The notes under the pieces were generated by a model, which searched no databases, was not told where the DNA came from, and saw nothing but the letters and a program-made list of their open reading frames with translations. 64,000 nucleotides of DNA from Daucus carota subsp. sativus (taxonomy: Eukaryota > Streptophyta > Magnoliopsida > Apiales > Apiaceae): contig NC_030387.2 of assembly GCF_001625215.2 (NCBI RefSeq), positions 29,783,606 to 29,847,605 of the forward strand. Direction: 5' to 3'. Positions 1 to 49,150 of this stretch are shown piece by piece; the stretch's first letter is position 1; every line of letters begins with the position of its first letter. The translations under genes and the position numbers were made by a program.

Positions 1-159
1 TCAGTTTTGTATAATAGTCAACATATGTATGCAACATTTATTTAAAATCTAAGATATGTCATTACAGCTTTAGGAAAGGTTTACTGTATTGTATCCATCC
101 ATTATCTTCTGAATACCCGCAATTTGAAGAAAGATTTCTGAAAATGTTTCCCATGGCAG

Positions 160-411
160 GGAGTGTTGTTGGGACTATCAAACACTGCAGGTGTGCTTGC
201 AGGGGTCTTTGGTACCGCTGCAACCGGATACATACTCCAGAAAGGTATCTTAAGTTATTGTTGGATCTAATCCTTGGGAGTTGGATGCTGTATCTTAAAT
301 TATGTTTTTGCAGGATCCTGGGACGACGTATTTAAGGTTTCCGTTATACTTTACATTATTGGAACATTAGTGTGGAATCTGTTTTCAACTGGAGAGAAAA
401 TCCTAGACTAA
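160..411 (+). CDS. PHT4;4: PHT4-family plastid anion/ascorbate transporter, C-terminal end (partial)
   Basis: Only the last two exons lie in the window. Exon 160-244 follows a CAG acceptor and encodes a segment containing GLSNTAGVLAGVFGTAATGY. Exon 314-411 follows GCAG and encodes a stretch containing GSWDDVFKV and ending TGEKILD before TAA at 409-411. These are hallmark C-terminal motifs of plant PHT4/ANTR major-facilitator transporters, covering the last two membrane helices. Family knowledge: PHT4 proteins sit in plastid membranes and carry phosphate, or ascorbate in the case of PHT4;4. The choice of PHT4;4 over its paralogues rests mainly on synteny: in Arabidopsis PHT4;4 neighbours ATI2, RLK4 and RHB1A, whose homologues are all in this window. 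The 5' exons lie upstream of base 1. Confidence 0.85.
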
Positions 412-1525
412 TTCATGCATGTGAAAGGGATGCAGCCTATAGATCAAGTGGTGATAGGTGAGATGTAAAGTTCAGAAAAGTATCCAATTTCCAAATGGCA
501 AGATAATTTTGCAGCGAACAAACGAAAGAGGCCACCATTTTCATAGTTCTCTCATCCAGTCTCGGACAACTAAGTTGCTTCTCCAAAACAGTTTTGTGGG
601 ATTGGCTTATGAAAATCATGTACTGGCCTTGCAGTTTGTTGTAATTATAGAACAATTGGGTTTACATTTTCTGGTTATTTTACAACCATAATCTCATATG
701 CAGCTAATACAGAGCTTTGCATATACACAAAATTGTCAAAGGTAATACCTGTGTATCTTTATGCCTTTTAATTCCTGTGTTTCCCGGCATTACAGAGCCA
801 TCTGCATCAAACCAGAGTTTCTGCAGTCTTCACATCCTGTTTCCTTCGGTTTTGTGCTACATGATTTTAGGGTGTGATGCTAAACTGCTAATATAAGTCA
901 TATCATATGGTTGGGAGAGGGAGGGAGGGACACGAGCCCCTCAGGCGTATTCCTCCTTTTGCTGCTCAGATTCCCCAATTCTCAAACAAAGGAGAATAGA
1001 AGAAAGCATACTTTCATTAAACATTTTAATTTAAAAAAAAAAAAATCTTGTTGAGTTACGTACTTACCTCAAAACAAAGAAACAGCAGTTTCCCCATAAT
1101 TTATAGAATCAAGCTGCTGAGGGAGGGAGGGAGACCAAATTTTATATATGCGGTCAGATACAAAATTAGCCAAATTTCAAGAGCACCGAGAGAAGCAGAA
1201 CTCTACTAAAGAAATTAGTTTCACATTACTAGAGTACTGATCCTCATCATTCATTTACAATGCAGAATGTAGTATGGCATTGATACAAGCTTCAGTCCAT
1301 ATTAGTGCTAGTATGGACAACTACAGTAAAGCATATGAAATCCAAAACCAAAGTAATACAGGAAATCCAAAACTAGAGTAGTAGTTGAGTAACAAGCAAA
1401 TATTAACAAGTAGCTTTGTTACGTTTTCAAAGGACTAGGATGTCTTTTACTCATCCTAGTAACCACAATCTAAACTTTCACTTTCTCAATTTGCCTTCGT
1501 TCTTAACTTTTTCGCCATTGCTGCC
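412..1525. other. intergenic, 3' flanks of two convergent genes
   Basis: The first few hundred bases are the probable 3' UTR of the transporter. The rest is AT-rich spacer with short GGGA runs near 920 and 1120 and an A-run near 1030. The end of the stretch is probably the 3' UTR of the minus-strand ATG8-interacting gene. I see no further gene or bounded repeat. Confidence 0.5.
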
Positions 1526-4390
1526 TTAACGCTGAGATGTGGTGCGGCCTCTGATAACTGAACCACTTTGATGGCCACCAACTAATACACTATTCAACCC
1601 GGAGAAGGGGCCCAGCATCTTGCTCATCTTCTGCAACATTGCCAAGCAAGGGTAACCTTTAATGATTAGTAAACTGAATGCGCGTAAAACTAGTAATTGA
1701 AGCAAATAAACGATGACCAGTTAAAATATTGTAGACATCTCCTTTCCACTTTGATTAGCTTGTCAATTTTCACGTGCGCTTCTAAGAGATGGTGAAAAAA
1801 GGAAACTGTTCAACTTCACACATCTATAGCATGCAATGCACATGTAACAACATACCATAAATACAACTTACATATTTGATCTAATATGATAAGATGACAA
1901 AACATACTAAATTTTTTTTTAAAATAAATTATCTAACAACATACCATAAATACAACTTACATAAACTTGTTTTAGAGCAACCCCAACCATGAAAAACCAT
2001 TACCTAAAAAGTGAATTGGCATACCAATAATAAAAAATATAGATAATCACTTGAAAATATCACACTCCAATCATACTATCCCCTTGTATTGCATGTACAA
2101 TATTTGTTTGACTTTAAGTTAGCTGTTAAATAAAACCAATTTTACTCATTTTTTTCATAGTACATATATATAATCAATACTTAAAATAGAATTCTACTTG
2201 CAAAATCTTTTAATTGAAAGTAAAAAAGAAACTGTTAATTGTAAAAAAAGAAAATTTTAAATTTTAATGTTGCTTTAATTTTACATATTTTTTTTCTTAG
2301 TATGTCATGAGATAGTACTTACAATTAAGGATTATATAATTATTTTTTAAAAATAAAATCATTCCATCACCCCCGAGCATTCCGCCTTACAAGATTCACT
2401 CAAAATAACGTTGTGAGTGTCCATTTCTATACCTTGTATCGTATTGAATCACGCTCTATGTAACAATGTGATGAACACTTGAGAGGTAAATAGATAAGAT
2501 AGAAAAAGAAGACAATTGTGTAATTGTCATATATCCCAAAAATAAATGACTTTTCTCTGATTCAATAATCTTTATAAAAAGATATAGGACTGTAAAGTTG
2601 AAGGTGCATTTAATCTAAGACAAATCCTAGAAAGAACGAACATTAACCGTAGGTTGAAAAAGAATCTGCAGTATGTACATTAGCCATGGATCTATGTACA
2701 TAGATAGACATGCAATAAGAAAACTGTCTTGCTGACTTCATCAGTTTAAGCTTATAATCTTGAAACTTTAAAAATGCAAAGCAGGATCAACACTTATAAA
2801 ATCACTTTAGTCAGGAAGTAGTCAAAGATCTGCCTTTTTCCTTTGCAATATAGGGTCTTATGTTTCTAAAGAGAAACACCCCATGTGTAACATTATCACT
2901 GGCAGACCCAAGATATATATTTAGTGGGGGATTAGTAGACTTTCTAAATGCTATAAATATGTGTAGGATAACATATAGTAGAATTTAAGCAGGATTCAAA
3001 CCCTAAAGCAACCTATCTTTATAAGTATTGTCCAGCTAACATAAAGGTGAATTAAAAATAATTGAAAACGATTTGGGGGGGAGTGGGGGTGCACAGGCCT
3101 GTTCAAAATAAAAATATAGATAGAATAGTAGCCCATCATACATCATAGTATTTAATAAAAAAGAATGAATTGTTTTGCTAGGTCTGTTTAAAAGGTTCAA
3201 AAAAGCAATCCTGTTTTTACACCTGCAAGTAAAATAGCAAAATACTTTCTGCAACTTCACAAATAAACTTGCATTTTGCAGGAGGCTCATCTGCTTTATT
3301 TGTACAAATAATAAAAGATATACCGGGGCATAACTAAGATCCTAGCATAAAAGGTTGATTGAACCCACAAATCTCTCACGTCTACAGCGAGAAAACTAGA
3401 TACATACACAAGTATGCATAACAAGTTTACTGCAGAATTTCAGTTTATTGCCTATTTGCTTCACTATATCAGAATAAGATAGCTAATGCAATTTATATGA
3501 ATTGCTAACATATAAATTAAAAATGGTATAATCTAATAAGCAGAATAGAAATTTGACTATTTATTTTTAATTTATATAAAGCAGTAACACCTAAGCCATA
3601 CCTGATCACCGCAGTGCAACTTGCGTTGCTGCCATTTGTGCCCAATAATTACAACTCCCATGACAGCTGCAGCAATGAGAATAGACCACATAGCATTTGC
3701 TTCTTTTGCTTGAGCATATAAAGAAGCAACTCTCTTCTTCCACCAAGCCTCAGAAGGCAGGTCGGATCCATCATCTTCATTCTCATCGCTAGAAGTTGGT
3801 GATCGGGAGAGATTTGATTCTAACCCTTCTTCAGATGGATCAACTGGTTCATAAAAAGTTCTCTTCTCCTCAAGTGCGGCAGATCCGCCAATGGTTGCTT
3901 CACCATGGAAAGAACTATATTTAGCAGTGTTATACATACCCTGTTCTTCATCCACCAAAGTCAACCCATGTAGTGCCAAGCCTTCTTTAAATTCTGTACC
4001 CCCCACAGATAAACTTTTGCCCTTCTCATTAACGAACTGCATCACAGGAAAGTCATCAGACATACTCAAAGCTTTAACATCCCAATTATCTCCATCCTTA
4101 GTATTCGACATGCCCCCTTCCTCTGCTACAAAATCAGAGGAATATTCGTCGACCTGCTTGGCCAGCTCACTAGAGACCACATTTTTCTCTGGGCCAAAAG
4201 GGGAATTCTCATGCTGATCCGCTTCAGGTTTATCCTCTTTATCTTCTCCAAGACGGCGTCCCTGGTTATCATCATTCAATTTAACTTGTACTGGACCAGG
4301 AGATGCAGCATATGCTGACGCAGTAAGAGATACAACTTCCCATTCATTCCCATGTGCAGGAACTTCCCGTCCTTCCACGTTATCAGCCAT
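1526..4390 (-). CDS. ATI1: ATG8-interacting protein (ATI1/ATI2-like)
   Basis: The first coding exon is 4390-3602 (263 codons) and ends at a CAG|GTATGG donor. The last exon is 1630-1526 (35 codons): it follows TTGCAG and encodes a segment containing MSKMLGPFSGLNSVLVGGH and ending in TAA at 1528-1526. The N-terminus carries NEWEVVSL, whose WEVV fits the W-x-x-V ATG8-interaction core. A long acidic, Ser-rich region follows, then WWKKR and one hydrophobic membrane segment (about residues 235-252). Family knowledge: ATI proteins are plant-specific membrane proteins on ER- or plastid-derived bodies that bind ATG8 in selective autophagy. Comparison with remembered Arabidopsis homologues suggests a short exon of about 39 nt, with a sequence like QLKW, is missing between these two exons. 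I could not place it in the 1.97 kb intron, so the middle of the model is incomplete. Confidence 0.85.
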
Positions 4391-4399
4391 CCCCGAAGT

Positions 4400-6085: not shown

Positions 6086-6092
6086 ATTTATA
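6085..6092 (-). promoter_or_regulatory. TATA box of the ATI gene
   Basis: The minus strand reads TATAAATA here, followed by a GA/CT-biased leader with a GTAAGT donor about 80 bases downstream. Confidence 0.55.
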
Positions 6093-8876: not shown

Positions 8877-11800
8877 ATGGGCGATCTCTACGCTTTGGAT
8901 TTTGATGGAGTTATATGTGATAGTTGTGGAGAGAGCTCTGTCTCTGCTGTCAAGGTCCATTTCATTACTTTCCTGTTTTTATATACTTCTTCTAGTATTG
9001 TTTTTTGTCTGATAGTAGTTGAATTTAGTTACAGTATGATTTGCTGTGATTTTAGAATTTGAATCATGGGTTTTGAAAGTGGTTTGATTTCACGTAGTGG
9101 GTATGTTTATGTTTAATTAAAGAGTTACATTAGCAGAGGTTGATTTGCTCATAGACTCAATGAATTGATTAAGAGCAAGATAGTTTGTGTTTTTAAGAAT
9201 CCATTTGTGGGTTTTGACTATTGGTGTGATTTTGTGTAGTGAGTGTGCTTTGTGATGTAGCAGGGGGTATATTTTGATATAATGAGGTTTAATTTGTTTT
9301 GCTGATGTTTATAGGCTGCCAAAGTGAGGTGGCCTAGTTTGTTCGAAAATGTGAGTTCATCTTTGGAGGCTTGGATTGTTGATCAGATGCACATTGTAAG
9401 TCCCTGTTGCAGTAGCTGTTCATTGTTTTTTTTTTGATTTGAATGAGGTTTTCATTTTCTTTGCTTCGTACTTCAGTTGCAATACTGGACTACTTCAAGT
9501 GACATTTGTATCGGAAAAGTTCAATTGACTTCGTGTTCTTAGTTTTAAACATTTTGTGAGTTGTTCCTCGCAAGTTCACATTCACCTGTGTGCTAGTTCA
9601 ATTGACTTCTTGTCCTTAGTTTTTAACATTTGAAGGTGTAGTATGACAAATTTATAACTGTGAGTACCTTTAATAAATGTAAAAAAAAAAAAAAAGTTAC
9701 GCAGTTTCAGATTTTATAGTGGCTTTTTTAGAAACAAGGATGATATTGGTGAATTCATGTCATAATCATGTGGACTTGATTCGGGGCATTCCAAAAGAGA
9801 AATATGTCATTATATTAGGGTCATTTTGTATATGTCTTGTTCTATCCACAGTCGGTTTCAAAAATTCAGAATCAAGTAACAAACACTTGTTTTGTCAAGT
9901 TGTTTATGGAGTCGCATACAGAATATGGAAATATCCATATTGCTATAAAGGTTCATCCTCTTTCTGTTGGCTGTGCATATATCTGTTTGATGAAACTTAC
10001 ATTGCAAAGATGTTTCTCTTAATACTGTCACTTGTTGATTCTGTATGATACTAAGAGTTAAATTGCAATATCTTTGCCGTCAGTTATTTTCGTAATCTTT
10101 CTAGTCTGCATTCCCCATGAGTCCCTTAAATTTTCAATCGTGCACAATATACAGATTCGTTCTTTATGTGAAATTATATTATGGTAGCTAGTGTCCTCAT
10201 TTTTCTCCTGCTTATTGGGATATATTACAAAAGGCTTGTAATGATAATATTATTTCCTAATCAGTTTTGTGTATACCGGGTCTTTCCAATATTAATAATA
10301 TATAACACTCAACTGACCATAGTAAGACAGAAAATACGTTCTTGAAAGATATATCTTTGTGTTCTGGGTACGTAAACCTTTTTCCTTGCTTAAATCATGA
10401 AGGAAATCAGACCATTGCCACTATGTTTGGAAAATAATATAATTATCTTAATATACGCCACTGGAAAGTAATCAAATTCAAATTTGTGGCAGGTGCGTCC
10501 TGTGGTAGAAACAGGGTATGAAAATTTGTTGCTTGTGAGGTTGTTGGTGGAAATCCAGATTCCTTCTCTTCGCAAATCCTCGGTGAGTACATTCTGTAAG
10601 AGAACGTGGAAAACCATGGTTGAGTTGGATAGACAAGTCGTAGAACATAAAACTGATACATGATTTCCTCACTTCTATTACTCGACTTGATTGGTTTTTG
10701 CACAATGATGAGGAAAATGAAAGTGTATGTTCTTATAACGCTTTTTTGGTTCTAATATTATTATTAAATGTGCAAGGTTGCAGAGGGACTCACTGTTGAG
10801 GGAATACTAGAGAGCTGGTCAAAACTTAAACCAGTCATCATGGAGGAATGGGGAGAGGATAAGGATACTCTTGTTGATCTATTTGGAAAAGTCCGGGATG
10901 AATGGATGGACAATGACTTGACTACTTGGATAGGTGCTAATAGGTAGCTTTTCTTTCATTATCTTTTATGACAAGCCTCCAAAATGTGGTGACCAAGATT
11001 TTTATATGAACTACACTATTTACTTTTTAGCCAGTGTAAAACTAACAAGGATTAAATCCTATTTGTACTATAAGAAAAGAGAAATCATACTGTTCTATTA
11101 CTAGTGAAATTCAAATCAAGAAGAATCAGCAAACATGTAAGAGACTTATAGAAAATGTTTCTGACTTTGAATGAGTACTTTCTATAATTATATTCTAGAT
11201 TATCCTGTCTAATTAAAACTACACTGGCATTTGACTGTTCTCTTGGAGTATCTAGAACCTGTAATTTATATACTCATCTTTCGCTTGTGTTGTAAATCTG
11301 AAATCCGTTTGGATTATGTGGTAAATCAGTGAATAACAACAGGCAATTAACTACTGTTGTTTGGACCAATTTTTGCTTACCTTTTAGCTGCAAGTGTTTA
11401 AGTATTCCATCTGCAATAGCATAGCATTTCTGTAATATGATAGTTGACCATATGAGTGGCAGTCATTTGGTGTCATAGTAGTGTAGAATGTCTTCAAATG
11501 CCCAGACTTGTTAACTCATGCCAGTCTTAAATAGTGCCTTGAAAATTGAAATATATAGTTTATGCATGCTGTTGTCTGTTCGACCTAACAATGAAAGGAA
11601 TACAACCAGTGGTCTGATAGTTCGAGTCCCTGCAGATTTTATCCAGGTGTATCCGATGCCTTGAAGTTTGCAAGCTCAAAAGTCTATATAGTTACCACGA
11701 AACAGGTATTTTTGTGACTCTCTGAACTATATTTTATTATTTTACAGATTTATGCTTATAGATCTCCCTTTCATTTTGCATTCCCAGAGTCGCTTTGCTG

Positions 11801-12411
11801 ATGCATTACTGCGAGAGATTGGAGGAATAACCATTCCCCCTGAAAGAATATATGGTCTTGGAAGTGGGTGAGTAATTGTTATTGACTCCAGCTTTTCAGT
11901 ATCATATTATCTTCATCAGCAATTTTTACACTGTCGTGTTCTTATCAGTCCCAAAGTTGAAGTGTTGAAAAAGCTGCAGAAGATCCCAGAGTATCAGGGC
12001 CTGACCCTACAGTAAGATTCTTTACTTAACTTCCGACCAGTATATTCTTCAATCTCAGTTCAGATTTTTCAAAAAAACCTTATACTGATTAACATTCATG
12101 TTTCCAGCTTTGTGGAAGATCGCATTGCAACTTTGAAAAATGTCATCAAGGAGCCTGAGTTGGATGGATGGAACTTGTATCTAGGTGATTTACCACCCCC
12201 CTCTGCTTTAACTGTGGATATTTCAGTTAGCTTTACCTTCAATCACTAATTATTATTCATATGCCTTTTTGAAACGAATTGTTAACATCTGATTTTTTGA
12301 ATTGGAACAGGAGACTGGGGTTACAACACCCAAAAAGAAAGAGACGAAGCTGCAAGCATATCTAGAATTCACCTTCTCCAGCTGTCTGATTTTAGCAAGA
12401 AGCTCAAATGA
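8877..12411 (+). CDS. HAD-superfamily (haloacid dehalogenase-like) hydrolase
   Basis: Nine exons join into a 268-residue protein: 8877-8954, 9315-9395, 10493-10582, 10777-10943, 11636-11705, 11788-11867, 11949-12011, 12108-12184 and 12311-12411. All junctions are GT-AG and in phase. The N-terminus, MGDLYALDFDGVICDS, holds the HAD motif I DxD (DFDGV, residues 8-12), whose first Asp is the usual nucleophile. VYIVTTKQ fits motif II (Thr) and the LYLGDWGYN region fits the acidic motif IV area. FVEDR may also contribute. Family knowledge: this is the conserved plant single-copy-type protein at Arabidopsis At2g45990; its substrate is unknown to me. No transit peptide is obvious. The start is the first ATG and places DxD in the normal position. 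A SINE lies 94 bases upstream. Confidence 0.93.
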
Positions 12412-13064: not shown

Positions 13065-13566
13065 TGTTATATAATATACTCCCTCTGTTTGTGTTTATTA
13101 GACGTTTTAGAAAAATGCACTTGTTTGTAATTATTAGTCGTTCTCAGTGTTCAATGCAATGTCAACTATCTCATTACTTAGTTGCCCTTATTTATTGTCT
13201 ATATTTATAATTAGATGTTACAAATGGTGTGTAAAATGAAGGGGCATGAATGTAAAATAGTGCCTTCTTAATGATAGTTTAACCATTCCAATAAATTTTC
13301 TTAATACCTGTGCAACATCCTTAAACGTCTAATAAATCAAAACAGAGGGAGTATACTATAAAGAGAGCAAATAGAAGAACAAATTGACTAAGAGAATGGT
13401 GAGGATTTTCATATCATTTCAAGCAATACAAAATGCCTTTATATAGGCCATGAGATATAGGTTACAAGTATAATGGAGGGTCAAGAGTCTCCTATTAATG
13501 GGAGCAAGTTAAAGGACAAAGTCATTCACAAGCCAAAGGTCACCTAAATAAAATAATTACATAACA
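13065..13566 (-). repeat. 3' LTR of the copia element (with nested MITE)
   Basis: The ends read TGTTATATAAT and ATTACATAACA. The LTR is split by a 273-bp Stowaway at 13079-13351; outside it the sequence matches the 16929-17155 LTR at all but about six positions. Confidence 0.93.
13079..13351. mobile_element. Stowaway MITE nested in the copia 3' LTR
   Basis: Terminal inverted repeats of about 30 bp start CTCCCTCTGTTTGTGTTTAT on the left and CTCCCTCTGTTTTGATTTAT on the right (complement), both continuing TAGACGTTT. The flanks are a duplicated TA, proven by the empty site in the other LTR (ATAATATATACTATAAAG). It has no coding capacity and would rely on a Tc1/mariner-type transposase in trans. 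It inserted after the retrotransposon did. Confidence 0.95.
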
Positions 13567-13710
13567 CTCCCCCTTGGATGACTTGTACTAACATCATGCC
13601 TCATTAAAACCTTACTAGGAAAAACCCGGTGGGAAAAACCCTAGTGAAGGAAAAAGAGTACATGTGTTGTACATAGTTTAAAATAATGTCTCCCCCTCAT
13701 TTTAACATAA

Positions 13711-16441: not shown

Positions 16442-16928
16442 AAGATTTCTTTTTTATCACATCGAAATCACAGAATATCGAAATGGAGTGTAAAGACAAA
16501 AAGTAGATATCGAAAAGAGGTTTCCAGAATGGTATTGCTCATAATATTTGGAAAAATATTCAATTTACTATGAATTTTAGAAGTGTCGGCATATCAACTT
16601 GAATCATATAATCAGATTACACAAAATGCAGATTTTGACATACTTATGAGCATATTTTATAAATATGCGAAGAAAAAAAATTGTAGAGGATCAAAAGACC
16701 TTTGCAACGAGTATAAGATCAATGAATTCCGATGAACAATGAACCAAATACGGAATTTATAAGACTCAAACACATAATAAGTACATAAAGATCATACAAT
16801 TGCAAGAAAGCAAAGTAAGCTACAAGAAGTGTACTTACTTGATGGACAAAGCGAAATAACAAGAATTCCGTAGAATCTTTCTACTTCTTGGATTTCCAAT
16901 ACCTATTTACACTATCGTGCTGATAACG

Positions 16929-20024: not shown

Positions 20025-23000
20025 ATGCAATCCGGCGGCGCACATGGCCGGAACACGGCGGCGTCTGCCTCCCAATCGCCGTCGTCTTCGTCGTCCGCCG
20101 TTCCGGATCAACACAGACCCCACCAGGTTAGTTACTTGCATTTAACGAATTACTGATTTAAGTATGTGTATGTTGCTGATTTGCTTAAATGTTTTCGAAT
20201 TCATTGTTTATTTGTAGTTGCGTTTGTTGAAAATTGAGATAGTGTTATGTGTATGGAGTCGATGGTAATTGATACTCAGTGTTTGCCGGGAGAAATGTGT
20301 AAACACTGTAATTACTCAGAGTTGATTTACCCTAGTTTAGGAGAATCGGATCCAACTGTTTTAGTTTGTTTAGTTCATTGATTAGTATAGGTATCCGTGT
20401 TGTGGATAGATATATATTATTCGATTTTTTACATGCCAAATGAGTACAAACTCGCGGTTTCTTAGACTTTCGGATAACAACTTCTGATGTTGAGATTTTA
20501 CCGCCGAATATTGATATAGAAGTAGTTTTCATAATTGCATTGAATTCTGAGAATTTTAGTCATATTCCGCTTGTCAATCAGGTAAAAATGTGCTTATATC
20601 ATTCATATATACTGTCCTGATGGGCTATATTAAAGATAATATTAATTTAATAAAAGATGTTAGTTCAGTGACTGACATCAGTAGTGTGCATAGTGCTTCC
20701 ATTTTGGTGTCCGTCGGCCATGTACACCCTCCATTTTTTTTATATAGGACGCTTGACTTTTTGACACACAGTTTTAAGTCCTTTGGCCCCATAGTTAAAA
20801 TCATTATTTTTAAAATTTTCTTTTTGTCAGTTACAATATTAGTCACATATTTTATTCAGAAGATATGTAAAATGTGGTCAAAAGACTTAAAAGTGTGTTC
20901 AAAAAGTTAAGCGCCCTATATAAAAAACGGAGGGAGTAGTTGGATTTTTATCGTGACAGTCAAATGCTCTATTTGAGCTCAAAGGGTTAGAGGTTCCACT
21001 CCATACAGCTTGATCACCCACAATTCTGCAGGAATATTGGTTCTTCTATGTATGCGACATAGGCTCTTATATGTCTTTGGTACATAAATTTTTTAGGAAA
21101 TGAGCTCATTATAGAGGAAATAAGCATAAGACAAGTTTATAATGATTATACTTATTATTATATTCTTACTTTCTTTTAATTTGGCGCAGTCCTTCCATCA
21201 ACAGTTACTTAGGAAACCCGATGGGACTGAAGCTATGTTAGGATTCCAGGGTGGACTTCATGGAGAGTTGGGAGGAAATATTGGGTCAAATTCTGGCTCT
21301 ATGCTTGTACAACCTAGAAGTAGGGAGGAAACACATAATAGGAATCATGGATTTGACCTACAAATGCTGAACCCAGCACAGCACTCCTACTTGCAGTATC
21401 ACTCAGCACAACAGAAGTCAGCTCCAGGGATGCAGTCTCAGCACCCAAGCAAATTAGGAATGGCTGGGCCTTCTGTGCAAGACCATGACATGCGGATGGG
21501 AAATATACAAATGCAGGATCTGATGTCCATTCAGGCTTCAGCATTGTTATCAAACAAGAAACCAGAGCATTTTGGTCATGATGAGAAGCTAAGTGAGGAA
21601 CAGAGAAGTGATTCCAAGCCTCCTGTTCAAACATCACTTGGACAACTGATGCCTGGGAATATGACAAGCCCTATGCAGATACCACAATATCAGCAAAACA
21701 TCCAAAATATGGGTAATCAGTTTGCAATGGCCGCACAGATGCAGACAATTCAGGCTTTGGCACTTGATCGTAATATTGATATATCTGTTCCTGCAAATGC
21801 AAATTTTATGGCACAACTTATGCAAATGCAATCCAGGATAGCTCCACAGCATAATAAGCCAAATGAAACCAATTTAGGGGAAAAGTCTTTGTCCGTCACA
21901 ATGCCAAAGCAGCAGGTAACTTCCCCACAAGTTGCAAATGAAAGTTCTCCACGTGGTTGCTCATCCAGTGATGTGTTGGGCCATTCTTCTTCAGCTAAAG
22001 TGATGAAACAGACAGGTCAACCTGGCCTGTTTTGTGCATCAACTGCTTCCCTGGTTCCCAATGCCAATAACCACCCACTGCAAACATTTTCTGCTCATAG
22101 CAGTGATAGTCAGTTGTTATCAAGACAGCGTACCATGATAGATAATGGAGTTCCTCCCATGCATACTCCACAGTCATATGTTAACCAGAACCAACAAGTA
22201 GATGCTAAGCCAATCCAGCGATCTTCTCCTCTCTCAGCAGCTTCACCAAGTGAAGGGGGATTAGTGAATCCTTCATTTCAGGGTGGACCACTCACTCACT
22301 TGCCACAACAATTAGGATTTACAAAACAGCAATTACATGTTCTTAAAGCTCAAATACTGGCTTTTAGGCGTTTAAAGGTGTTTCTCACTATTTTTCTAGA
22401 AATATTTAAAACACCATCAGCACTGGTGAATTATTCCTGTCTGTTATATATATATATATATTTTTCACCATAAGATTCTATTTGCCTTCTTGCAGAAAGG
22501 AGATGGAACACTTCCACATGAATTACGACAGGCTATAGCTCCCCCACCTCTTGACGAACAGATGTTGCAGGCATCACAGCCTGGGCCAACAGATGCATCT
22601 GGTGGGAGAAATGTACGCATGGAAGATCATATTAAACGTGTGGAATGCAGTGAGAAAGATCTGCCCACTTTTTCATCAAATGACAGGCTTAGTAATGTCA
22701 AAAGAGAAGCAGTTGCTGAAGATGAGAAAAGAAATTCTTCTAGACAAATTGTACGAGCTGTACTGAAAGAGTCACCATCAGCTCCTCCTCAAGAAGAAGA
22801 GCATCAAACAACTATCTCTTCTGCTAAAGTGGAAGAGGAAGATCATGGGATTCAAGGAGATGGTATTGCAAGAAGTGATGTGCATGTGGATAAGGGTAAG
22901 GCAGGCTCTTCAGTAGCTCCTCTCTCTGAAACAGTGCAAGTGAGAAAACCCTTCCAAGTAAGCACCACACCTCAACCGAAAGATACTGGACCTACTAGAA

Positions 23001-29000: not shown

Positions 29001-30926
29001 CATGGAGCAGGGAATTCAATTGGCCATAGAATGTCAGATGGAGTTCAGCGCAGGGTATGCCTTACAACACAACCATACTTGAAGTTACACCGGAGTTGTA
29101 CATTTTAATAGTCTGCTGCTTCTTTTCTATGTTGCATAAATATTTTTTACAAAAGGCACTGCTTTTCTCTGCTGTTAAGAGACAGACCATTGAATATCAG
29201 TCCCCCCCCCCCTCCCGGTTTGTGTGTGTGTGATCCTCTGTTTTTTCCTCATGCTTCACCTTGTTTTTTAGTGAATTATTCCTCGTCTGCATCATTATCC
29301 ATGTAGTGAAGACTAATTTTGGGGACCAGTTTTAGTTTTGTACTTGTGATGCATACTCAACTTTAGGGTGATGTGCTTACATGGATATGTGTGCTTTAAA
29401 AATAGTTGTAATTAGGATTTAATTTGTGGCATTTTTTTAATGTTGTCATAGTCATAAATGTTTCATGTTTTCAGTGCAAGAATGTGATGAAGAAGTTCCA
29501 GAGGACACTAGACAAGGAAGGGCATCAAATAGTGCCACTTCTAACAGAACTTTGGAAGAAAAGTGAAGATACTGGTTACATGAGTGGGAACTGTCAGATT
29601 CATATACAAAAGATTGACTATCAGCTTGAAAACTTTGGTTATAACGGAGTTATGGAGTTTGTTTCAGATGTGCAGCTTTTGTTAAAGGGCGCAGTTCAGT
29701 ATTATAAGTTTTCCCATGAGGTATTCTTTATAAATTTCACATATGTGCTTGCATCATGCTGCTTGAGTTCTTGTGGACTTAAATGTATATCTGTAAGAGA
29801 GACGAATATGTTGTAATGATGATATAGAATAGTATAATGTGTGTGTGTGTCTATATATATATATATATCAAGTTGGTGTTACCTTTTTGATCCGAACTAA
29901 TGTTCAGCACTGACTTTCAAATCCTTTTGTGTTGGCTGAGAGTGTTGCTTTTTAAGTCGGGCATTTTACGGCAAGCATCTCTAGTGCTGATTTTCTGTTA
30001 TGAAGAATGAAAAGGCTTGCAAAATTATATTGGCGAATTTTTCTGGGTATTCAGTCTCCATGGAGAAACATAATACATTCCAGATTTTATAAGTATTTGG
30101 AAAATCTATTATATCATTTTCTTGGTACTAAAGTATATTTGTTAAGTAACAGTCTCTTTCTCTTGGTCGCATACATGAAATATATTGTATGATTGGATTG
30201 GTGAATTATTTATCTATACATCTACCTTTTCACGCCCAGTCGCCCACCACACTCATGAGAAGCGTTATTTGATTCTATGCTTTTCTATTTCATGAATAGG
30301 TAAGGACTGAAGCAAGGAAGGTGCATGATCTATTCTTTGATATATTAAAGAAGATTTTTCCAGAAACCGATTTCCTAGAAGCCAGGGGTGCTGTCTCTTT
30401 CTCGGGCCATGGAGCTTCTACTTCGGCTCCACCTTCAAAACAAATTCTTGCTGGTCAAGGCAAGCGAGCTAAACAAGCTACCATGGTGGATCCTGATCGT
30501 AGCCACAAACAGAAGCCGCTTTCTCGTGGGCTTAGTAATGAAGACACTCGGATTAGAAGTCACATGCCTCACAAAGAGACAAGGCTTGGAAATAGCAACA
30601 GGGAGCTAAACCAGCAAGAAGATTCCGGTCTCTTCTCTCATCCAGGAGAACTTGTCATATGTAAAAAGAAGAGGAAGGATAGGGAAAAGTTTTCCGTAAA
30701 GTCGGGAAACGTTTCTGCTGGCCCAATGTCACCTGCGAGTGTTGGCGGTAATATTAGAAGCCCAAGCTCAGGCTCACTGTCAAAGGATACCAGATTGATT
30801 CAGCAAGGAAGGGATAATCAGCCTCCTCATCAAGCAAATGTCAGTAGCAGCGGAGGCATTGGCTGGGCAAATCCTGTGAAAAGAATGAGAACAGATACCG
30901 GAAAACGGCGCCCCAGCCATTTGTAA
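20025..30926 (+). CDS. BRM: BRAHMA, SWI/SNF2 chromatin-remodelling ATPase
   Basis: Fourteen exons give about 2154 residues (Arabidopsis BRM is about 2193): 20025-20126, 21190-22377, 22496-23812, 23995-24107, 24356-24443, 24570-24656, 25076-25168, 25246-25329, 25410-25613, 26570-26812, 26883-28433, 28533-29054, 29475-29720 and 30300-30926. Order: Ser-rich N-terminus; low-complexity Gln/Met-rich region; QLQ domain ([20 protein letters not shown], about 411-430); HSA-like region ([11 protein letters not shown] ... [18 protein letters not shown], about 710-770); Walker [12 protein letters not shown] (about 955-965); DEAQ box ([11 protein letters not shown]); motif [11 protein letters not shown] (about 1365); an acidic basic-patch region; and a C-terminal bromodomain-like region (about 1865-1970) before the basic tail ending RRPSHL. 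BRM is the nuclear catalytic subunit of plant SWI/SNF complexes, sliding nucleosomes with ATP. Exon 3 ends at CAG|GC rather than GT (see findings). Unlike Arabidopsis BRM, exon 1 has no poly-Gln tract. Confidence 0.97.
20725..20936. mobile_element. Stowaway-like MITE in BRM intron 1
   Basis: Flanked by TA on both sides. The left arm reads CACCCTCCATTTTTTTTATA then TAGGACGCTTGACTTTTTG. The right arm, complemented, reads CTCCCTCCGTTTTTTATATA then GGGCGCTTAACTTTTTG. The inverted repeats extend about 60 bases each in a 212-bp element. It is non-coding. Confidence 0.88.
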
Positions 30927-32710: not shown

Positions 32711-35700
32711 CTAAGGATCAACTGAACCAGGATCAACTGAACCAGCCATCCCTTCATCGCTTGAGTTGGACTCAGTATCACTCGGTTCTTCATCACTTGA
32801 AATCTCTTTTAGGGCCTCTCCCACATCTTCCGCCTTGGCATATTTTTCACAGTACTCTGGAAAAAAAAAATTAAACTCTTAAGTTTTTATGTATGTACAC
32901 ATGGTCTGCTTATAATTAACCATGAGCTGAGAATAACATTGATTAAAAAGTTTACATAGTACATTTCAACACTGCTAAAGATTACTCCAATTCTTATACT
33001 AATATATTTCTGCTGATATAATCAAAAGAAATTTAATATAAAAATCACTCAGTGAAAGATGATAGCATAGCATGATAAATTAATAGACTGAATTAAGATT
33101 ACATAAATACTCAATGATTATCAATTCTCGGATTACATCTTCATGTATTTCCGGAACCACACTTGTGTGTGAATCAAGAAAAAACTGTTACTGCTGAAAC
33201 CAAAAACTTATCAATGACGACTGACCCCATATGCATCTACATCCCCTAAATGTTATTAGACGGAGCTTTAATTTTATGCTAGATTGAAACTAAACGGAGC
33301 TTTGAATTGATTCGAATACTAGCAATTTTATTAGGAAGATAGGGTATGTCAGTTGTGTTCTTAGTTTTATATAAAGCCAAGCCAAGTGATTTTAATTATA
33401 TATGAGTTTACGTTATATCTTTCTTTTCCATTAGGCTTAACTACACATAGAAATGAACCTACAAGAAAATTTTCATCCTAGCAAATTTTTAACCTTTCAA
33501 AGTATTAAGAAATATAGAATCAATCACCATGACTGGAGTCACTGGACAGGGTTTAGAGTTCTCCTAGATGCAAATAACAGAAAGGAAGTATCATCGATTA
33601 AGCTCCACATAGTTTAAGCAAATACACTGAAATATCAGAACCTAGAGAATTACAGTAATCAGAAATATAATGTTGGGTAAAAGTCATTACAATATTATTA
33701 GAAGTAAGTTGGATAAAAAAAAGTTGACAGCATTTTCTTGTGACTGGCAGGAAATATCGAAGAACCATCATAGTTTAGCAAGAATACCCCTCTTCTCTAG
33801 GAAATAAGAGGTTGAGGGATCAAACCCTGTGGAGGCATTGATGTAATTCCCTTAAGACAATAAAAACCGAAAACAGATTTTCACTCATAAATTTGTAAAA
33901 GAGGTTGGTCCTGAAGAATACGTATACATGTATGAATGATGTGGAAGTGCCAAGGAGGAAAAGACAGAAAAGTGTCCATATGGTTTCAAGAAGGTCCTTA
34001 ATCAGTTGGCAAGTATGAAAGAGTCAGGCTGTCAGCATGTATTAATTGTCAACAAGAATTGAACCATGTAAACAAACAATACGTTATACTCTTGCAGGTA
34101 TTAATCAAAGAAAGAATCGGCATAAGCAGATTTGATGTAGAAGACAACTTGCCTGAACAAGGGTGGTGACCACATTTTAGATGAATCAGTAAATCATTTA
34201 AGGGAGTGTATAATCAGAAGCATTGCTACGAAGTATCAAGTTGTAGCCATACTTAATTGAGGAATTTAAACAAAAAACAAAATTTTATGACTTAATAATA
34301 GATACAGGTGCAACCGACTCATATCTAAGTTGTGTAAATATAATAAAACACAAAAGCGTTCAAGGAGGAATTATGTTTTCAAGTGCAGAAATGAGCATTA
34401 TTCAGAGTAATATTGTCCATCATTAATCATACCATAAAGACACTAAAAGAAGAGCACGCTTCAGGACTTTAAAAACAGTAAACAAAGTTCAATACCTTTA
34501 ACTTGTTTTTCATAGGCAGCTTGATCACGTATCATTAGAGCTGCTGCGTTCCGATTCAGCGGGCTAGATGGATTGGGGTATAGAAGGAGTTGCGGGATGA
34601 ATACTTCAAACACATTTACTAGATCTATAAAGCAAAGATATCAACACCAGTCAGTAGTAACTTTTAACCTGCGACTGCAAGAAAATTCTTATTATATTTT
34701 ACAGGAATGCTATTAATATTACCAAACATGGGGCTCCAGCTTTGTTGAATAACATCCAGGCAAACTGCTCCAGACCTGAATAAAAGTTATTCACCAAATG
34801 AAATTTTTTTATATAAACATAATGAAACAGCTAATTACCTTCTATAAAAACCTACTGAACATCAGACAACTTATACTCACTTTTCATTCACATTTGGGTG
34901 ATAAATCTTATTTACAAAGACTATAGATGGAGACTTATAAGGATAATTTTCCGGAAGCTTAACCCTTATTTTCCACATGCCTCCTTGGTAAGGACCTATT
35001 AACAGATTGTAAAAATTTATATAAGAAAAGGTAAAAGAAATTAAAATTACTGTGCAATTTCTTGTACATGTATCCAGTTAAGGATAACATAATATACTCA
35101 ATTACAAAGGAAAGAAAACTGTAAATTTGCAGCTGTAATGTTTTTCTTATGGAAGAAATATATACTTATCTTACAAATAATAATAACAAAAAAAGTATTC
35201 ATTATGAAAGTGGCAATATTACTCTGTATCCTGAAAATCCCAATCCCAAATTCCAGAAAAGATGAACTGATTGAGGCCAATATCAGATAACATGAACATC
35301 CAAAATTATGCAATTTGCAATTTTCCGAAAGATCATAAACTTAATAAAAGTTTGTAATCTTTGTAAGAAAAAAAAAATTCTACTGCAAAGCAAGTGCCCA
35401 CCATATCAAAAGAAAAATTCAATGTTTCCACACAAAAAAGGGAAATATGGAGCAGTAAGATTACACAAGATAGATTCAAACTTTATGTCTAAAGTAGTGA
35501 ATAAAACAAGTATACAATCCAAAGCTGCAACAGAACTCATAATAAGCACATGAAGATCACCCATTCTGAATCAAAACAAGAAAAACCCCAAAAGTGATCT
35601 CATTCAAAACCAGATATTTCTTCCTTTAGAAACACACACACACACACTGGCACAAAAACACACACAATCATGCATATAGTTCAGTACATACATAAGATTA

Positions 35701-35937
35701 AAAAAAAACAAAAGGTGGGTATGAAGAAATTACTGTCACTAGGTCCATGGAAATAAACAAAGAACTCATGCAACCCATCATTGATCATCTCCACTTTGTA
35801 ATCACTCATCATCCTGAATGAACAGACAATTAAAAATATTAATTCATTGGCAAGAAAAGGAAAATAAATAAATAAAAGGATTAAATAACTAACAGTTTCA
35901 TCAAGTCTGTGTCTCTGCGTTTGTTTTGAGAAGACAT
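32711..35937 (-). CDS. UBC6: ubiquitin-conjugating enzyme E2, UBC4/5/6 group
   Basis: Six exons give 188 residues: 35937-35894, 35813-35734, 34995-34881, 34775-34723, 34624-34496 and 32856-32711, all GT-AG and in phase. The start [20 protein letters not shown] and the UBC fold motifs are intact. The active-site Cys is in the [18 protein letters not shown] segment, after the expected HPNVN, and [12 protein letters not shown] follows. Family knowledge: these E2s accept ubiquitin from E1 and pass it on with RING-type E3s; this plant subgroup has an acidic C-terminal extension. Here the extension is Ser/Asp/Glu-rich and ends in a doubled GSVDP, caused by a direct 15-base repeat at 32716-32745. 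UBC6 is preferred over UBC4/5 by its place next to BRM, as in Arabidopsis. It is convergent with BRM. Confidence 0.96.
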
Positions 35938-37199: not shown

Positions 37200-37835
37200 A
37201 GTCAAGAAGCACTTTAGAGTCTGAACTTTAAAACGTGACAATATGCATCCTAAACTTAACATTCCCATGCAAGTTGTAACCCTAGTCACTATTCCGTCCA
37301 TATCTACCGTTAACTTTAACTGTTTGAGAGGTAATTGTGTGTATATTAGTTTCTAATAACTACTTTACCCTCTGTGACCCCTCATAAATTATGTATTATA
37401 TTTTGAAATTATTTCTGAACACACACAACGATATAAAAAATTTTAAAATAATTTTAAAAATATGTCTAGATTTAGAATCTGAAAATTTATTTATTTTTAC
37501 ATAAACGATGTAACTTATTTTAAAATTCTAAAATAAGTACATATTTTAAAAATTATTTCAATTTTTTTTACATCGTTTTGTGTGTTCAGAAATAATTTCA
37601 AAATATAATACATAAACTTTGGGGGTCATAGGGGATAAAGTAGCTGTTATAAACTAATATACACATTGTTTCCTCTCAAACAGTTAAAGTTAACGGCAGA
37701 TTTGGACGGAATAGTGACTAGGGGTTACAACTTGCACGAGAATATTAAGTTTAGGGTACATATTGCCACGTTTTAAAGTTCAGGTACTAAACTGCGTTTG
37801 GAGCAAACCTAGAGGTTACAAAGTGTAATTAACTC
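37200..37835. mobile_element. Mutator-like foldback MITE
   Basis: The left arm holds CTGAACTTTAAAACGTGACA and TGCAAGTTGTAACCCTAGTC; the complemented right arm holds CTGAACTTTAAAACGTGGCA and TGCAAGTTGTAACCCCTAGT. The arms continue to CGTTAACTTTAACTGTTTGA and pair over most of the element. The right tip is GAGTTAATTACACTTTG (complement), like the 50563 element. The left tip has diverged and no 9-bp duplication remains. Confidence 0.78.
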
Positions 37836-38039: not shown

Positions 38040-40604
38040 CTAACCAAGTGAGAGCTTGGGAGAAGATGCAGCATCTCTACTTGCTTCAGACAATTGTACA
38101 TGATCACTATCAGACTGGCTACCAGCAGTTGTTGATGCTCTGTTTCCAGAATCCACTCCGACCCCGTGAAACGATTCGCCAGAAACCAATGCCTGGAGAA
38201 GCTTTGGCGGTGGTGGAACGGTTACTTCCACTACACCTTCCAACATTTTTACCACCATTCCCATCGTAGGCCTTTGTTCTTCCTCATCTTGTATACACCA
38301 TATCGCCACCATTCCCAATCGCTCGGCTTCCACGGTATTATAGACTCCGCCAAGCCTCTCGTCGATCACAGCTGCTACATTTCCAGCGATTATGTGTTGT
38401 GCAGCCCATGGAGGAAAAAACCACTTTTCACCTGTTCCATTAGCTTTGCCAAATGAAGGTGGTCCCTCTACGTTCCTTCGACCACCTATTAGTTCTAACA
38501 AAGTCATTCCGTAGCTATACACATCAGCTTTTGTAGTGATTGCCACTCCGGAGATCCATTCTGGTGCCACATAGCCCCATGTGCCCCTCATCGTGACTAA
38601 TACACGGCTAAAATCTCGACCTATTAGCTTTGCTAATCCAAAGTCTGACACCTTAGCTGAAAAATCTTCATCTAAGAGAATGTTTTCCGGCTTTATATCA
38701 CAATGTATGATGCAATTTCTGCATTCCTCATGTAAATAAGCAATCCCTCTAGCTGTTCCCATTGCAACACGAAACCTAACATCCCAACTCAAATGCTGAC
38801 CATCTTTCTTCATGTAACCACTAAGAGGACCATTTGGCATGTAATCATAAACAAGAAGCCTGTGCGTCTCTTCAGAACAAAATCCCCTTAGCCTCACAAG
38901 ATTTACATGTTGAATGTTCCCAATGGTGCATACCTCTGCTCGAAATTCTTTCTCACCACTGCCCGGTCGTTCAAGCCTTTTTACAGCCACTGGCAGAGAC
39001 GAATCAGATAGTTGACCTAAAAATACAACTCCAAAACCCCCATGACCAAGCTTCTCCGAGAACCCCTTAGTTGCGGCATGAAGCTCTTTGTAAGTAAATA
39101 CCTTCAAATTTGTCACGGCATATATAGTGTCTTTCTTTTCTTTTCTTCTCTTCATCACTCTTTTCCTTGTGATAAATAAGAGAACACCCATCAGTGTAAA
39201 TATCACTATAATCCCGCAGGTTGTGACAACATAAACAAGCGTTTTCTTCCTTCTCTTCCTGTCTATACCTTCTTTCGGCACCCTTACATGAAGCACCTCA
39301 TCAGTAGTGCTACTCAATGTAAGATTCCGAATATTCAACATTGACCCAAACAAATTCTTACAAAGATTAGACTTCACATTGTGAAACAAACCAATACAAG
39401 AACAATTATTCAAACATCTTTTCTCACAATCATCCCTACTTGCTTCAAAAGATTCCCACTTTGCCCCATCGAAACCCACAACCCCGACCTCCTTAAATCC
39501 ATCCTTAACATTACAATCCTCATCACTATCACGACGACAACCACTAGAAAAACCTCCGGCATCCCAAGATACACCATCAACCGGCCTAAAACCAATCAAA
39601 CACTTGCAAGGATTCAACATTCTAGCATTACAAAACCCGAAATTCCCACACAATCCATACACTTTACAAATATTTTCATTTTCAGGCTGTGACCAAAACA
39701 TATTCCAATTAGCAGTTTGCGGGGACCACGTAAACTGCTTCAACTGCCCAGTATAATCAAGAGAAAACCTAGTCAAGGGCGGCTTTCCGCCCTCTAATGC
39801 TGTCTCCGTGTACCCGAATGACGCATTCGGGGTCCACGGAGACACAAAATGGAACCTGTAAATATACGGAATAGACATTTCCGGGACACCGGAAAATGTA
39901 TTCATCGACCATTTTCCGGTGTCCCAATAAACATAATCACCATTATAAGTTAATACAATCTCACCATAATCTTGCGATAACCGGAGCGAATAATTCCCCG
40001 GTGCAGGATCATTCGAGCTTTTCCAACTCGTCAGCCATTTTCCGGCCGTCAAATTCATTCCCGGCAGCCACGTGTCCGCCGGATAATTAAAACTGTTCCA
40101 CACAATTTCACCCCTCCACGACAAAATTACCAAATTACCCTGCTCTAAAAGCTTCACATTAGTACCATTAAGCACATTATCACTTCTCCACACAACATTT
40201 TCCGGTGACTTCAAAGAAGTATCAATAATTTCCAAACTTCCGTCGCCGGAATATACCAAACTCGCCGCCGCTAAATTTCCGACCGGAGACTCACGATTTG
40301 CGACCCAAACGTAAGTTAGGGTCGGTATAGAAGCGTACCAAATGCCTAAATATACTCTAGATTCATCATTTGTAGAGAAAAATCCCAGCTTGAAAGTCTT
40401 GTTTGGGCTGGAAATTGTAGCGTTTCCGGTGATTAGAGTGAGGGGTCGTGTAATCTGAGCATCTGGGCCAGTTAAATTTGAGATTTTGATGGGGGGTTCA
40501 GTGAGTTTTGTGTGTGAAATTGAAGTTGGGTTTTGGGCAAATGCAGTAAAAATGTGAAAATAAGTGAGAACGAAGAGGGGAATTAAAGGCATTATTGTGT
40601 TCAT
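38040..40604 (-). CDS. SD2-2: G-type lectin S-receptor-like Ser/Thr kinase (SD2-2/RLK4-like)
   Basis: A single exon of 854 codons. I chose the start at 40604 because MNTIMPLIPLFVLTYFHIFT begins a clean signal peptide; an in-frame ATG at 40664 would put 20 non-hydrophobic residues before it. Order: signal peptide; B-lectin domain; S-locus glycoprotein and EGF-like region (CKVYGLCGNFGFCN); PAN/apple region (CEKRCLNNCSCIGLFHN); one membrane helix (about 457-480); and a cytoplasmic kinase with LGHGGFGVVFLGQL, VAVKRLE, HCDIKPENILLDE (about 633), DFGLAKL and GYVAPEW. The Cys before the catalytic Asp marks a non-RD kinase, common in immune-type receptors. Family members act at the plasma membrane; the ligand is unknown. 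In Arabidopsis RLK4 (At4g00340) neighbours ATI2 and RHB1A, as here. A CT/GA microsatellite lies just upstream. Confidence 0.95.
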   Translation of the reverse strand: MNTIMPLIPLFVLTYFHIFTAFAQNPTSISHTKLTEPPIKISNLTGPDAQITRPLTLITGNATISSPNKTFKLGFFSTNDESRVYLGIWYASIPTLTYVWVANRESPVGNLAAASLVYSGDGSLEIIDTSLKSPENVVWRSDNVLNGTNVKLLEQGNLVILSWRGEIVWNSFNYPADTWLPGMNLTAGKWLTSWKSSNDPAPGNYSLRLSQDYGEIVLTYNGDYVYWDTGKWSMNTFSGVPEMSIPYIYRFHFVSPWTPNASFGYTETALEGGKPPLTRFSLDYTGQLKQFTWSPQTANWNMFWSQPENENICKVYGLCGNFGFCNARMLNPCKCLIGFRPVDGVSWDAGGFSSGCRRDSDEDCNVKDGFKEVGVVGFDGAKWESFEASRDDCEKRCLNNCSCIGLFHNVKSNLCKNLFGSMLNIRNLTLSSTTDEVLHVRVPKEGIDRKRRKKTLVYVVTTCGIIVIFTLMGVLLFITRKRVMKRRKEKKDTIYAVTNLKVFTYKELHAATKGFSEKLGHGGFGVVFLGQLSDSSLPVAVKRLERPGSGEKEFRAEVCTIGNIQHVNLVRLRGFCSEETHRLLVYDYMPNGPLSGYMKKDGQHLSWDVRFRVAMGTARGIAYLHEECRNCIIHCDIKPENILLDEDFSAKVSDFGLAKLIGRDFSRVLVTMRGTWGYVAPEWISGVAITTKADVYSYGMTLLELIGGRRNVEGPPSFGKANGTGEKWFFPPWAAQHIIAGNVAAVIDERLGGVYNTVEAERLGMVAIWCIQDEEEQRPTMGMVVKMLEGVVEVTVPPPPKLLQALVSGESFHGVGVDSGNRASTTAGSQSDSDHVQLSEASRDAASSPKLSLG

Positions 40605-43215: not shown

Positions 43216-43247
43216 CCCATAAAAAATTATATAAATATTTAGAGGTA

Positions 43248-45479: not shown

Positions 45480-47125
45480 CTAAGTGCATTTCAGTAGTAT
45501 GAAAATCATCTCCTAATCTCGCAAATAATTACAGAATGTTTATCTTTTCTTTTCAATCAAAATAACTTAAAAAAATAACACTAGATCAGTATGTAAAATA
45601 AATACAGTGAGCCACAAACCTGATCGCATATGGGGCAGGTATCACTTCTTTCCATCCACTCAAGAATGCATGACAGATGGAAGTGGTGGTTACATTTTGT
45701 AATGATCTTTGGATTTTCAACATCATAATCTGCAAAAATGGCATGAAAGCTATAAGTTACAGATCTGGAATGGGTAACAATAATCACTGGAAATGTGATA
45801 AAATATTATTAATCATCACGAGAAGTTCCCTAGAACAGACCTTCAAAACATGTGGGGCAAACATCCTCTTCTTCTGTTTTTGGAGCATCAACTTCATTTA
45901 ACTTGCTCAACTCAACTCCAAGTTTGGTTGGGGAGGCAAGGTCACCAACTTGAACCTTGCAATCTAATTCCTTGTGACTCAAATAAGTGCCTTTGTGCAA
46001 GCTACTACCGCTAATTATTAGCCCCGCAAAATTAGAATCTATAGTTTGCGGATACCCTAAAACATCAAATGGAATTGGTGTAGGAGGGCGTTGGAAGGTG
46101 TCGGGGCTTGATGTATCCAGATTCAGATCAACAATAAATCCAGTTGTACGAGCAACAGCTGCACCGTCATGAGATGTCAATGACCTATGCTCTTCCACAG
46201 CTGGTGAACACTGGAGAGAGATGAGAAGACATAACTCAAATAGAATTGATAGAGAAATTCCCCTAAAGACCGAGTCTATGGACATAACAAGGAAGCAAAA
46301 AAGAAGTCTAAACAAGCACTGGAATAGTTCCTTTGATTATGTCATGTGATACATGGTGCTCCAAGAAAACTTAAGTTTTGGCATATATTGAAAAAATAAA
46401 TAGGAGATTATGGCATAATTACATATTACTTGATTTTACAACATAAACTTTTTTATATACATAATCCAATGCATATATTAGTAACAGATATTGTTCTTCG
46501 AATTGATAAAAGGACCATTTATTCAGACAACTGAAATGGTCGAGGTGAAACAAAGAGCTCAAAATAAAAGTCAGGTGCTCATACTCCATACCAGCACTGG
46601 TAAAGTGACGAGATAAAGATTCTGAGTAAAAGAGATGGAAAAACTTGAAAATTCATATATTAGATTTACATGTCGAGTCCATGCACCTGTGTCTAATTGG
46701 ATGCATATACAATGATCCTATAATTTCTACAATGAAGAGTCCGACACTTGAGTCTGCACCATGTCCGAGTCTCATACTCAAATTAGGGGTAACAGTACGC
46801 AAGTGACAGCAGAATCCATAAGTGAAGGTACACAACAGTTGCAATGCTGTTCCTTCAACATCTCAAGAGGGATTAGATAACACTATAATCTATGAATTGA
46901 AATGTCACCTAAAACAATGATGTTCGAACAGTGAATTATTATGTTCTTAATGATTAAGATGCACGTGTGCCAAAATGCTCAAACTTAAGGAAGTGAATAC
47001 ATAACTGAAAATGAGAAAAGTGAATTAAAGAATAAGCTAAAGGCAATCGCGAGGATACTTACATAATAATATATAGGTGTCCCATGAAGCTGGTTATTCT
47101 TTGTAGAGCTACAACAAACACCCAT
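45480..47125 (-). CDS. RHB1A: RING-H2 E3 ubiquitin ligase RHB1A
   Basis: Four exons give 191 residues: 47125-47063, 46210-45841, 45729-45620 and 45512-45480, all GT-AG and in phase. MGVCCSSTKNN at the start has Gly2 with Cys4 and Cys5, fitting N-myristoylation and palmitoylation, so membrane attachment is likely. The middle has LNLDTSSPDTF and PIPFDVLGYPQT. The RING-H2 finger is near the C-terminus: CPTCFE, then CNHHFHLSCILEWMERSDTC and PICDQ, with all eight metal ligands. The last exon adds only EMIFILLKCT. Length and layout match Arabidopsis RHB1A, which is next to RLK4 there as here. Family knowledge: RING-H2 proteins recruit an E2 and promote ubiquitin transfer; the targets are not evident. 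The short last exon is the least certain junction. Confidence 0.93.
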
Positions 47126-49150
47126 TTTTTGCACTTATCTTCTAATTAACGAAAAGCAACCAGAGTTAGTAAAATGCTTCACCTTCTTTAAAACGTGTAA
47201 GAATTTAGCAAAAAAGTACACAAAATACAAAGTTATTAATGGACAGAAGCAACTTCAGGAGTTACCAAAAAACATAAGGGAATACTTTTAGCAAGTAAAA
47301 TACAAAACAAGTACATATAATCAATATATACTTTCACATCTATAAGAATCACATAATGCCAGAGAAGGGACATAGAACCAATAATAAGTAATTGTATTGA
47401 ACTCTACAAAAAGGATTTTCAATATCAAAATGCACTAAACTCTTAAAGAACATAGTTGCAAACTTGCAATATTTAAAGTACCGGATTTGTTAAAAAGAGT
47501 CAGATAGCATTCGTATCAGCCTTTCTGTTATTTTCCTTTTTGGATTAGCTTTTCGGTGACAGGACCAATTAAAGAAATTAGTAACTTCAGTAAGAGCTCA
47601 AATTCAAATCCGACTATTCTTGAAGATACAGTATTCTTACTCTTACAAACTTTAACTGTATACCACAGCCCTTGATTATAATGTCCGAAGTTATATGAGA
47701 TTTTTTTCTCTCTAAACATATGTAATGACTTGGCGAAACGGTGGCTTGTGATGTTAGAACTTTGCTCTAGCTAAATGCCGGGCGGATCGGAATTGGGGAA
47801 CAATATGCAAAATCATAACATGTAACTGCCTAGGAATACTTAAATGCATATTGTTGACAGCCCCGGAAATTTACTATTAGGTTGTACACATAAGTTGAAA
47901 GAAGTCAAGAACTTTGTTGAGTTTCATGCATATTTAGAAAACTAATTATGATCTGACTCTCCTTCCGAAGCGTATCTACTGCCACCGAAATCATCATCAC
48001 AGACATTTTTTATTAAGTTCAGATGTTCATTTGTGTTCTTGTACAATCCCGCACTCCTCTAAAGCACCTTTCTTCCATTAACCACACATATTATATATTC
48101 TCCAATATCAGCAGTGGTGTTGCTAAATAAGACTTTCATGTTGATTAACGTCCCTAAGAACCACAGTTTGGGTGTCACACTTCTTTAAAATGCAAGATAT
48201 AACTGGATGGCACTCAAACTGCACCTTAGTAAACTTCTGCGAAAGCAAAGAGCTTTACGCAGACTGCTGACATGCTGTCTCTCAGTTTTCTTTGTATGGT
48301 TAGGTGCAGAAGCTCGTAAAAGACGCCTCGTCTCAGAAATATCTGTGAAGAGGTCGAAATTGGAAGAGTCACAATAGGGCGAAGTATAAGGGAGCCTTTG
48401 CCAGTCTTCCAACCAGTTCATGAATTTTCTTTTCAATCCTTACCCCTTATTAAATTCAGTTGATAAAGCTAAACTCTCATATTTGACATCTTCCAGTGTT
48501 TGTGAAGCTGAATTCTTTTCCAAGTAGGATTTGGCTACATGATCATCCTAGGAAAAATGTCTCAAACCACCACGATCATCAGAAACACAAACTAATGAAA
48601 ATCCTTCAGAGCAATAATGAATTAGAAACCTCTTGTAGTGTGTATAGCAATCACATATCCCTTTTTAGTTGGTCAATTGTTGGCAAGTGAACACTAATTA
48701 AACAAAATTTTGTTTAAATATCTTTCCCTAACCTAAACAATAAATATAGAAATATAATGCTAAATTCTACACAGCACATAAATTTTACAATTCTCTACTT
48801 CTACAAGTAAAACCAAACAAGCCCAGATGATAAAGCACCTCAAAAAGCACATAATACACAGTCAGCAGATGCATACATGTATAAACAAGGAGCAAAAACT
48901 CACAGAAAACACAACCAACAAGTCCTCTAAAAACTTGAAAAAAGAACATAAAACACAAGGATAAGAGTTTTAATCAAAAATAAATATATATTTATAGAAG
49001 AATCGATAGATAGATACGTGTAGAACAGAGATGAATACCCAGATAAAGTCTTGAGTCACAGGAGGATGAGTGTTGTTGAGTCTATGGTGAAGGAGAAAGA
49101 TGCAGCCTCTGTATACCAAATGAGCCGCCTAAAATTTCCACGCTTTATAA
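47126..49150 (-). promoter_or_regulatory. RHB1A: predicted leader intron and promoter of RHB1A
   Basis: The minus strand from about 49115 to 49039 has CT-rich leader-like sequence ending at a CTGG|GTATTC donor. A TATAAAG-like box lies at 49149-49143. The ATG exon at 47125 would then follow a leader intron of about 1.9 kb. No other gene was recognised inside it. The exon limits are inferred from signals only. Confidence 0.45.

Follow-up and report, generated by a model that had tools for sequence, protein, structure and literature searches.

Analysis of the window (the whole 64,000-nucleotide stretch of Daucus carota NC_030387.2 considered here, which is plant nuclear DNA) reveals a single run of genes in which families kept by Arabidopsis on different chromosomes are interleaved. 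We consider it likely, with a probability of roughly 0.85, that the window retains an old eudicot gene order, and that beta and then alpha duplication, together with fractionation, gave rise to four Arabidopsis blocks.

From left to right the window contains the 3' end of PHT4;4, followed by ATI, a HAD-like gene, BRM, a UBE2H-class UBC, a G-type lectin kinase and RHB1A (Table 1). All seven genes named in the original prediction are present in the proposed order, PHT4;4 being represented by its last two exons. Beyond position 49,150 the same run continues with a BRH1-type RING gene and then a FRO ferric reductase. Gene calls combine open frames, exon joins and Pfam matches. The exon-join script connected the parts of the UBC gene at 5 of 5 places (one exon was shortened by hand) and those of RHB1A at 2 of 2, and it found no junction at the one place in PHT4;4, the one place in ATI, 3 of 8 places in the HAD-like gene and 4 of 8 in FRO. 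Curated Pfam cut-offs are exceeded for four of the seven families (the helicase parts of SNF2, UQ_con, the lectin kinase domains and RING), and the names PHT4;4, HAD and ATI are largely tentative, the MFS_1 and HAD family matches falling below the cut-off. These three names, like RHB1A, are those we take the genes to bear. Searches of the window with Rfam (gathering threshold) and ARAGORN (bacterial code) gave no match.

Table 1. Genes of the window, in nucleotide positions of the window, with the basis of each assignment
Gene	Position	Strand	Basis and remarks
PHT4;4-type transporter, last two exons	1..411	+	MFS_1 below cut-off (E=8e-4, 18.9 bits against 33.4); name tentative
ATI-type (ATG8-interacting) gene, approximate	1526..4390	-	No Pfam family (search up to E=1: only SAB at 0.23, below cut-off); name tentative
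HAD-like gene, nine exons, approximate	8877..12411	+	PF00702 below cut-off (E=7.9e-4, 20.3 bits against 26.4); name tentative
BRM-type SWI/SNF2 ATPase	20025..30926	+	QLQ, SNF2 and Helicase_C above Pfam cut-off; bromodomain slightly below (20.3 against 21.7 bits)
UBE2H-class ubiquitin-conjugating enzyme (UBC4/5/6 class)	32711..35937	-	UQ_con, 1.8e-40
G-type lectin receptor kinase, one exon	38040..40604	-	Lectin kinase domains above Pfam cut-off
RHB1A-type RING gene, 3' end approximate	45581..47125	-	RING by Pfam; subtype tentative
RING gene, putatively of BRH1 type	55816..56316	-	Outside the range of the original prediction
Ferric reductase, FRO family, ends approximate	59201..62287	-	Outside the range of the original prediction; sequence used for Pfam omits exons 2-4 and the end

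The intergenic regions contain several other elements. Between HAD and BRM lies a Copia-type retrotransposon (13352-17155), the 215-nt terminal repeats of which are 97.7% identical, so that the insertion appears fairly recent; its coding part is broken into three open frames. An open frame of 398 codons on the minus strand (17673-18866) shows weak similarity to the RNase H-like family RVT_3 (E=0.012, under the cut-off). Directly downstream of the UBC gene there is a tandem array (32085-32296) of 2.8 copies of a unit of about 72 nt, and positions 37202-37802 hold nested inverted repeats whose three pairs of arms measure 81-102 nt and are 84-89% complementary; they resemble a hairpin or a MITE-type element. 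Near RHB1A, a fragment on the minus strand (48188-48439) matches the PORR plant organelle RNA recognition domain (E=4e-10) and is preceded by stop codons in the same frame; it looks like a decayed copy.

The class of the UBC gene follows from the ranking of PDB sequences. Five sequences lead it, with values from 1.6e-58 to 2e-47: E2-24 kDa, a "putative" E2, two entries for UBE2H, and "ubiquitin carrier protein 4". UBE2D1 follows at 1.8e-27, which places the gene in the UBE2H class. According to the published excerpts, this class comprises UBC4, UBC5 and UBC6 in Arabidopsis, and the window gene could be any of the three.

The Arabidopsis loci agree for the most part with the published text, as far as the excerpts extend: ATI1 is At2g45980, ATI2 is At4g00355, UBC6 is At2g46030, and At4g00340 is a G-type lectin kinase (the label SD2-2/RLK4 for the window gene was adopted from the original prediction). 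At4g00370, At2g46020 and At4g00335 appear as homologues in a table of sesame genes (PMC10750367). The assignment of HAD to At2g45990 found no confirmation in these excerpts, where one table gives ribosomal RNA small subunit methyltransferase G and another no name. At4g00305 is given as a RING/U-box protein, and FRO2 (At1g01580) stands in tandem with FRO1 (At1g01590). Besides PMC10750367, the published excerpts come from PMC5604286, PMC9549997, PMC3547818, PMC5889549, PMC9569852, PMC6359015, PMC10951710, PMC3485569, PMC5458102 and PMC5539139.

The locus numbers bear out the proposal that a chromosome 2 set and a chromosome 4 set are interleaved in the window, each retaining its order, the one in the forward and the other in the reverse direction. 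Order within the blocks is kept, being monotone for both chromosomes, and at least two blocks interleave, as judged from the window order and from locus numbers given in papers, with those for HAD and BRH1 tentative. By Arabidopsis locus numbers, both sets are monotone in 28 of the 5040 orders of seven genes, in 18 of 720 if HAD is omitted, and in 48 of 40320 when At4g00305 is assigned to the BRH1-type gene; these counts are illustrative only, since the loci were picked by the original prediction. BRH1 itself we take to be At3g61460, and At4g00305 is presumably akin to it.

Sesame, which has a genome duplication of its own, shows the same order in an independent species. Table 4 of PMC10750367 covers 79 annotated genes that carry variants within three QTLs, given by gene number and with no positions, and the portion relevant here gives the following Arabidopsis homologues: At3g53740 for SIN_1009951; At2g45880, At4g00440, At1g01650, At3g61415 and At1g01610 for SIN_1009952-956; and At4g00370, At2g46020 (BRM), At1g63800 (UBC5), At4g00335 (RHB1A) and At1g01580 (FRO2) for SIN_1009957-961. 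Thus, like the window, the last five sesame genes comprise homologues of At4g00370, BRM, a UBC, RHB1A and FRO2, with all five shared families in window order by gene number. For nine of the 11 consecutive numbers (SIN_1009951-961) the homologues lie in the Arabidopsis neighbourhoods At1g016, At2g45-46, At3g614 and At4g00; the two misfits are SIN_1009951 (At3g53740) and SIN_1009959 (UBC5, At1g63800, versus UBC6). Unlike in the window, there is no free number between 957 and 961 for ATI, HAD, the lectin kinase or the BRH1-type RING gene, and the sesame run extends further to the left (GPAT4, SPPL4 and others). We read the missing genes as lost in sesame, a reading made from gene numbers that carry no positions. 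In the literature on other species with this gene order, the sesame paper (PMC10750367) was the only one found.

These data bear on two ways in which the pattern could have arisen without an old shared order. Large families (RING, kinase, E2) are involved and three of the gene names are tentative, which could mean that family members merely happen to sit in these regions, by chance or through mistaken orthology; we regard this as extremely unlikely, as it is at odds with the order found in both the window and sesame, and with the clade of At4g00340, which in the published excerpt holds one gene per species. Alternatively, the interleaving could be derived, a chromosome 2-like and a chromosome 4-like set having been joined by rearrangement in the lineage of the window. 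This is very unlikely, given that in sesame five genes from three Arabidopsis chromosomes stand in the same order, and that ATI, CYP86A and PIP1 are common to both Arabidopsis sets, as for duplicates of one segment.

The number of Arabidopsis blocks involved can be judged from genes retained in more than one of them. In a published table, CYP86A4 (At1g01600, chromosome 1) has CYP86A2 (At4g00360, chromosome 4) as its alpha partner and CYP86A8 (At2g45970, chromosome 2) as a beta partner. The PIP1 genes are found in four places, namely PIP1;1 (At3g61430), PIP1;2 (At2g45960), PIP1;3 (At1g01620) and PIP1;4 (At4g00430), in ancestral blocks N, J, A and O, respectively. Among the genes present in more than one block, the excerpts date CYP86A (alpha and beta) and give no dates for PIP1 (four blocks) or ATI1/ATI2; of the literature found to name all four PIP1 loci, none, in the text available, also gives either duplication phrase. 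FRO2 and FRO1 adjoin CYP86A4 by number on chromosome 1, as expected if the intervening genes were lost there. The CYP86A pairs, the presence of PIP1 on chromosomes 1-4 and that of FRO2 on chromosome 1 together suggest that Arabidopsis probably has four blocks of this segment, and that those on chromosomes 2 and 4 are probably beta cousins. In the simplest reading chromosomes 1 and 4 carry one alpha pair, and chromosomes 2 and 3 would carry the other.

A single duplication yielding two sister blocks on chromosomes 2 and 4, and nothing else, is therefore very unlikely. The original prediction placed all seven families in these two regions, and papers mostly agree with that placement, but the published dating of the CYP86A alpha and beta pairs contradicts it, as do PIP1 in four blocks and, in the sesame run, FRO2 and other homologues from chromosomes 1 and 3. 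On the published data seen, chromosomes 2 and 4 do not hold sister blocks to the exclusion of others, and the description of the segment as two duplicated blocks is not supported, as chromosomes 1 and 3 hold pieces too. The claim that only ATI is kept in both regions also fails on these excerpts, which place CYP86A (At2g45970, At4g00360) and PIP1 (At2g45960, At4g00430) in both as well. Jointly, the regions At1g01580-01650, At2g45880-46030, At3g61415-61460 and At4g00305-00440 hold the window families in a consistent order (some loci being tentative); unlike the window, each holds only a subset of them. The merged gene order is monotone on all four chromosomes, which is a consistency check and no test, as we placed the merged order ourselves with tentative loci for ASK20, GPAT8 and BRH1. 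The first two of these we take to be At2g45950 and At4g00400, respectively.

The position of CYP86A is the point at which the orders differ. Locus numbers place CYP86A2 between ATI2 and PHT4;4 on Arabidopsis chromosome 4, and the interval between PHT4;4 and ATI in the window (411-1526, about 1.1 kb) contains no open frame long enough for CYP86A or a P450, which counts against an identical order. Tentatively, and with more doubt than confidence, we suggest that CYP86A was ancestrally absent here and entered between PHT4;4 and ATI on the Arabidopsis line before the beta duplication. If true, such an insertion would account for its presence in three Arabidopsis blocks, its apparent absence from this place in the window and the lack of room for it among the sesame numbers.

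Starting from the gene order seen in the window, the five-gene order seen by number in sesame, and the alpha and beta pairs taken from papers, we infer descent of the segment through four blocks with the following losses. The ancestral eudicot order would have been PHT4;4, ATI, HAD, BRM, UBC, lectin kinase, RHB1A, BRH1-type RING and FRO, and would be mostly kept in the window. In the Arabidopsis lineage the segment would have been doubled by beta and then by alpha, giving blocks on chromosomes 1, 2, 3 and 4, each of which would have lost a different set of genes by fractionation: chromosome 4 would have retained RHB1A, the lectin kinase, ATI2 and PHT4;4, chromosome 2 ATI1, HAD, BRM and UBC6, and chromosome 1 FRO. 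Genes scattered in Arabidopsis would interleave in the window because losses differed from block to block. The original prediction had compared the window to an unfractionated ancestor; the evidence supports an interleaved, less fractionated relative, a descendant with less loss and not the ancestor. Counted against the proposed history are the misfits SIN_1009951 and SIN_1009959, the HAD match below the cut-off, the different name given to At2g45990 and the lack of room in the sesame numbers.

Nine neighbouring genes in the window would explain what Arabidopsis seems to carry in pieces on four chromosomes, and the segment provides a worked example for rebuilding the gene order that preceded the Arabidopsis duplications. 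It would aid the assignment of positional counterparts, e.g. among FRO and RING genes, and leaves the general view unchanged. In double-conserved synteny, duplicated blocks of one species interleave, each in order, in one segment of a relative following whole-genome duplication. The window resembles this pattern in the interleaving of several blocks with their order kept, and only the locus is particular; it is a tidy, ordinary example of a well-known process and is not new in kind.
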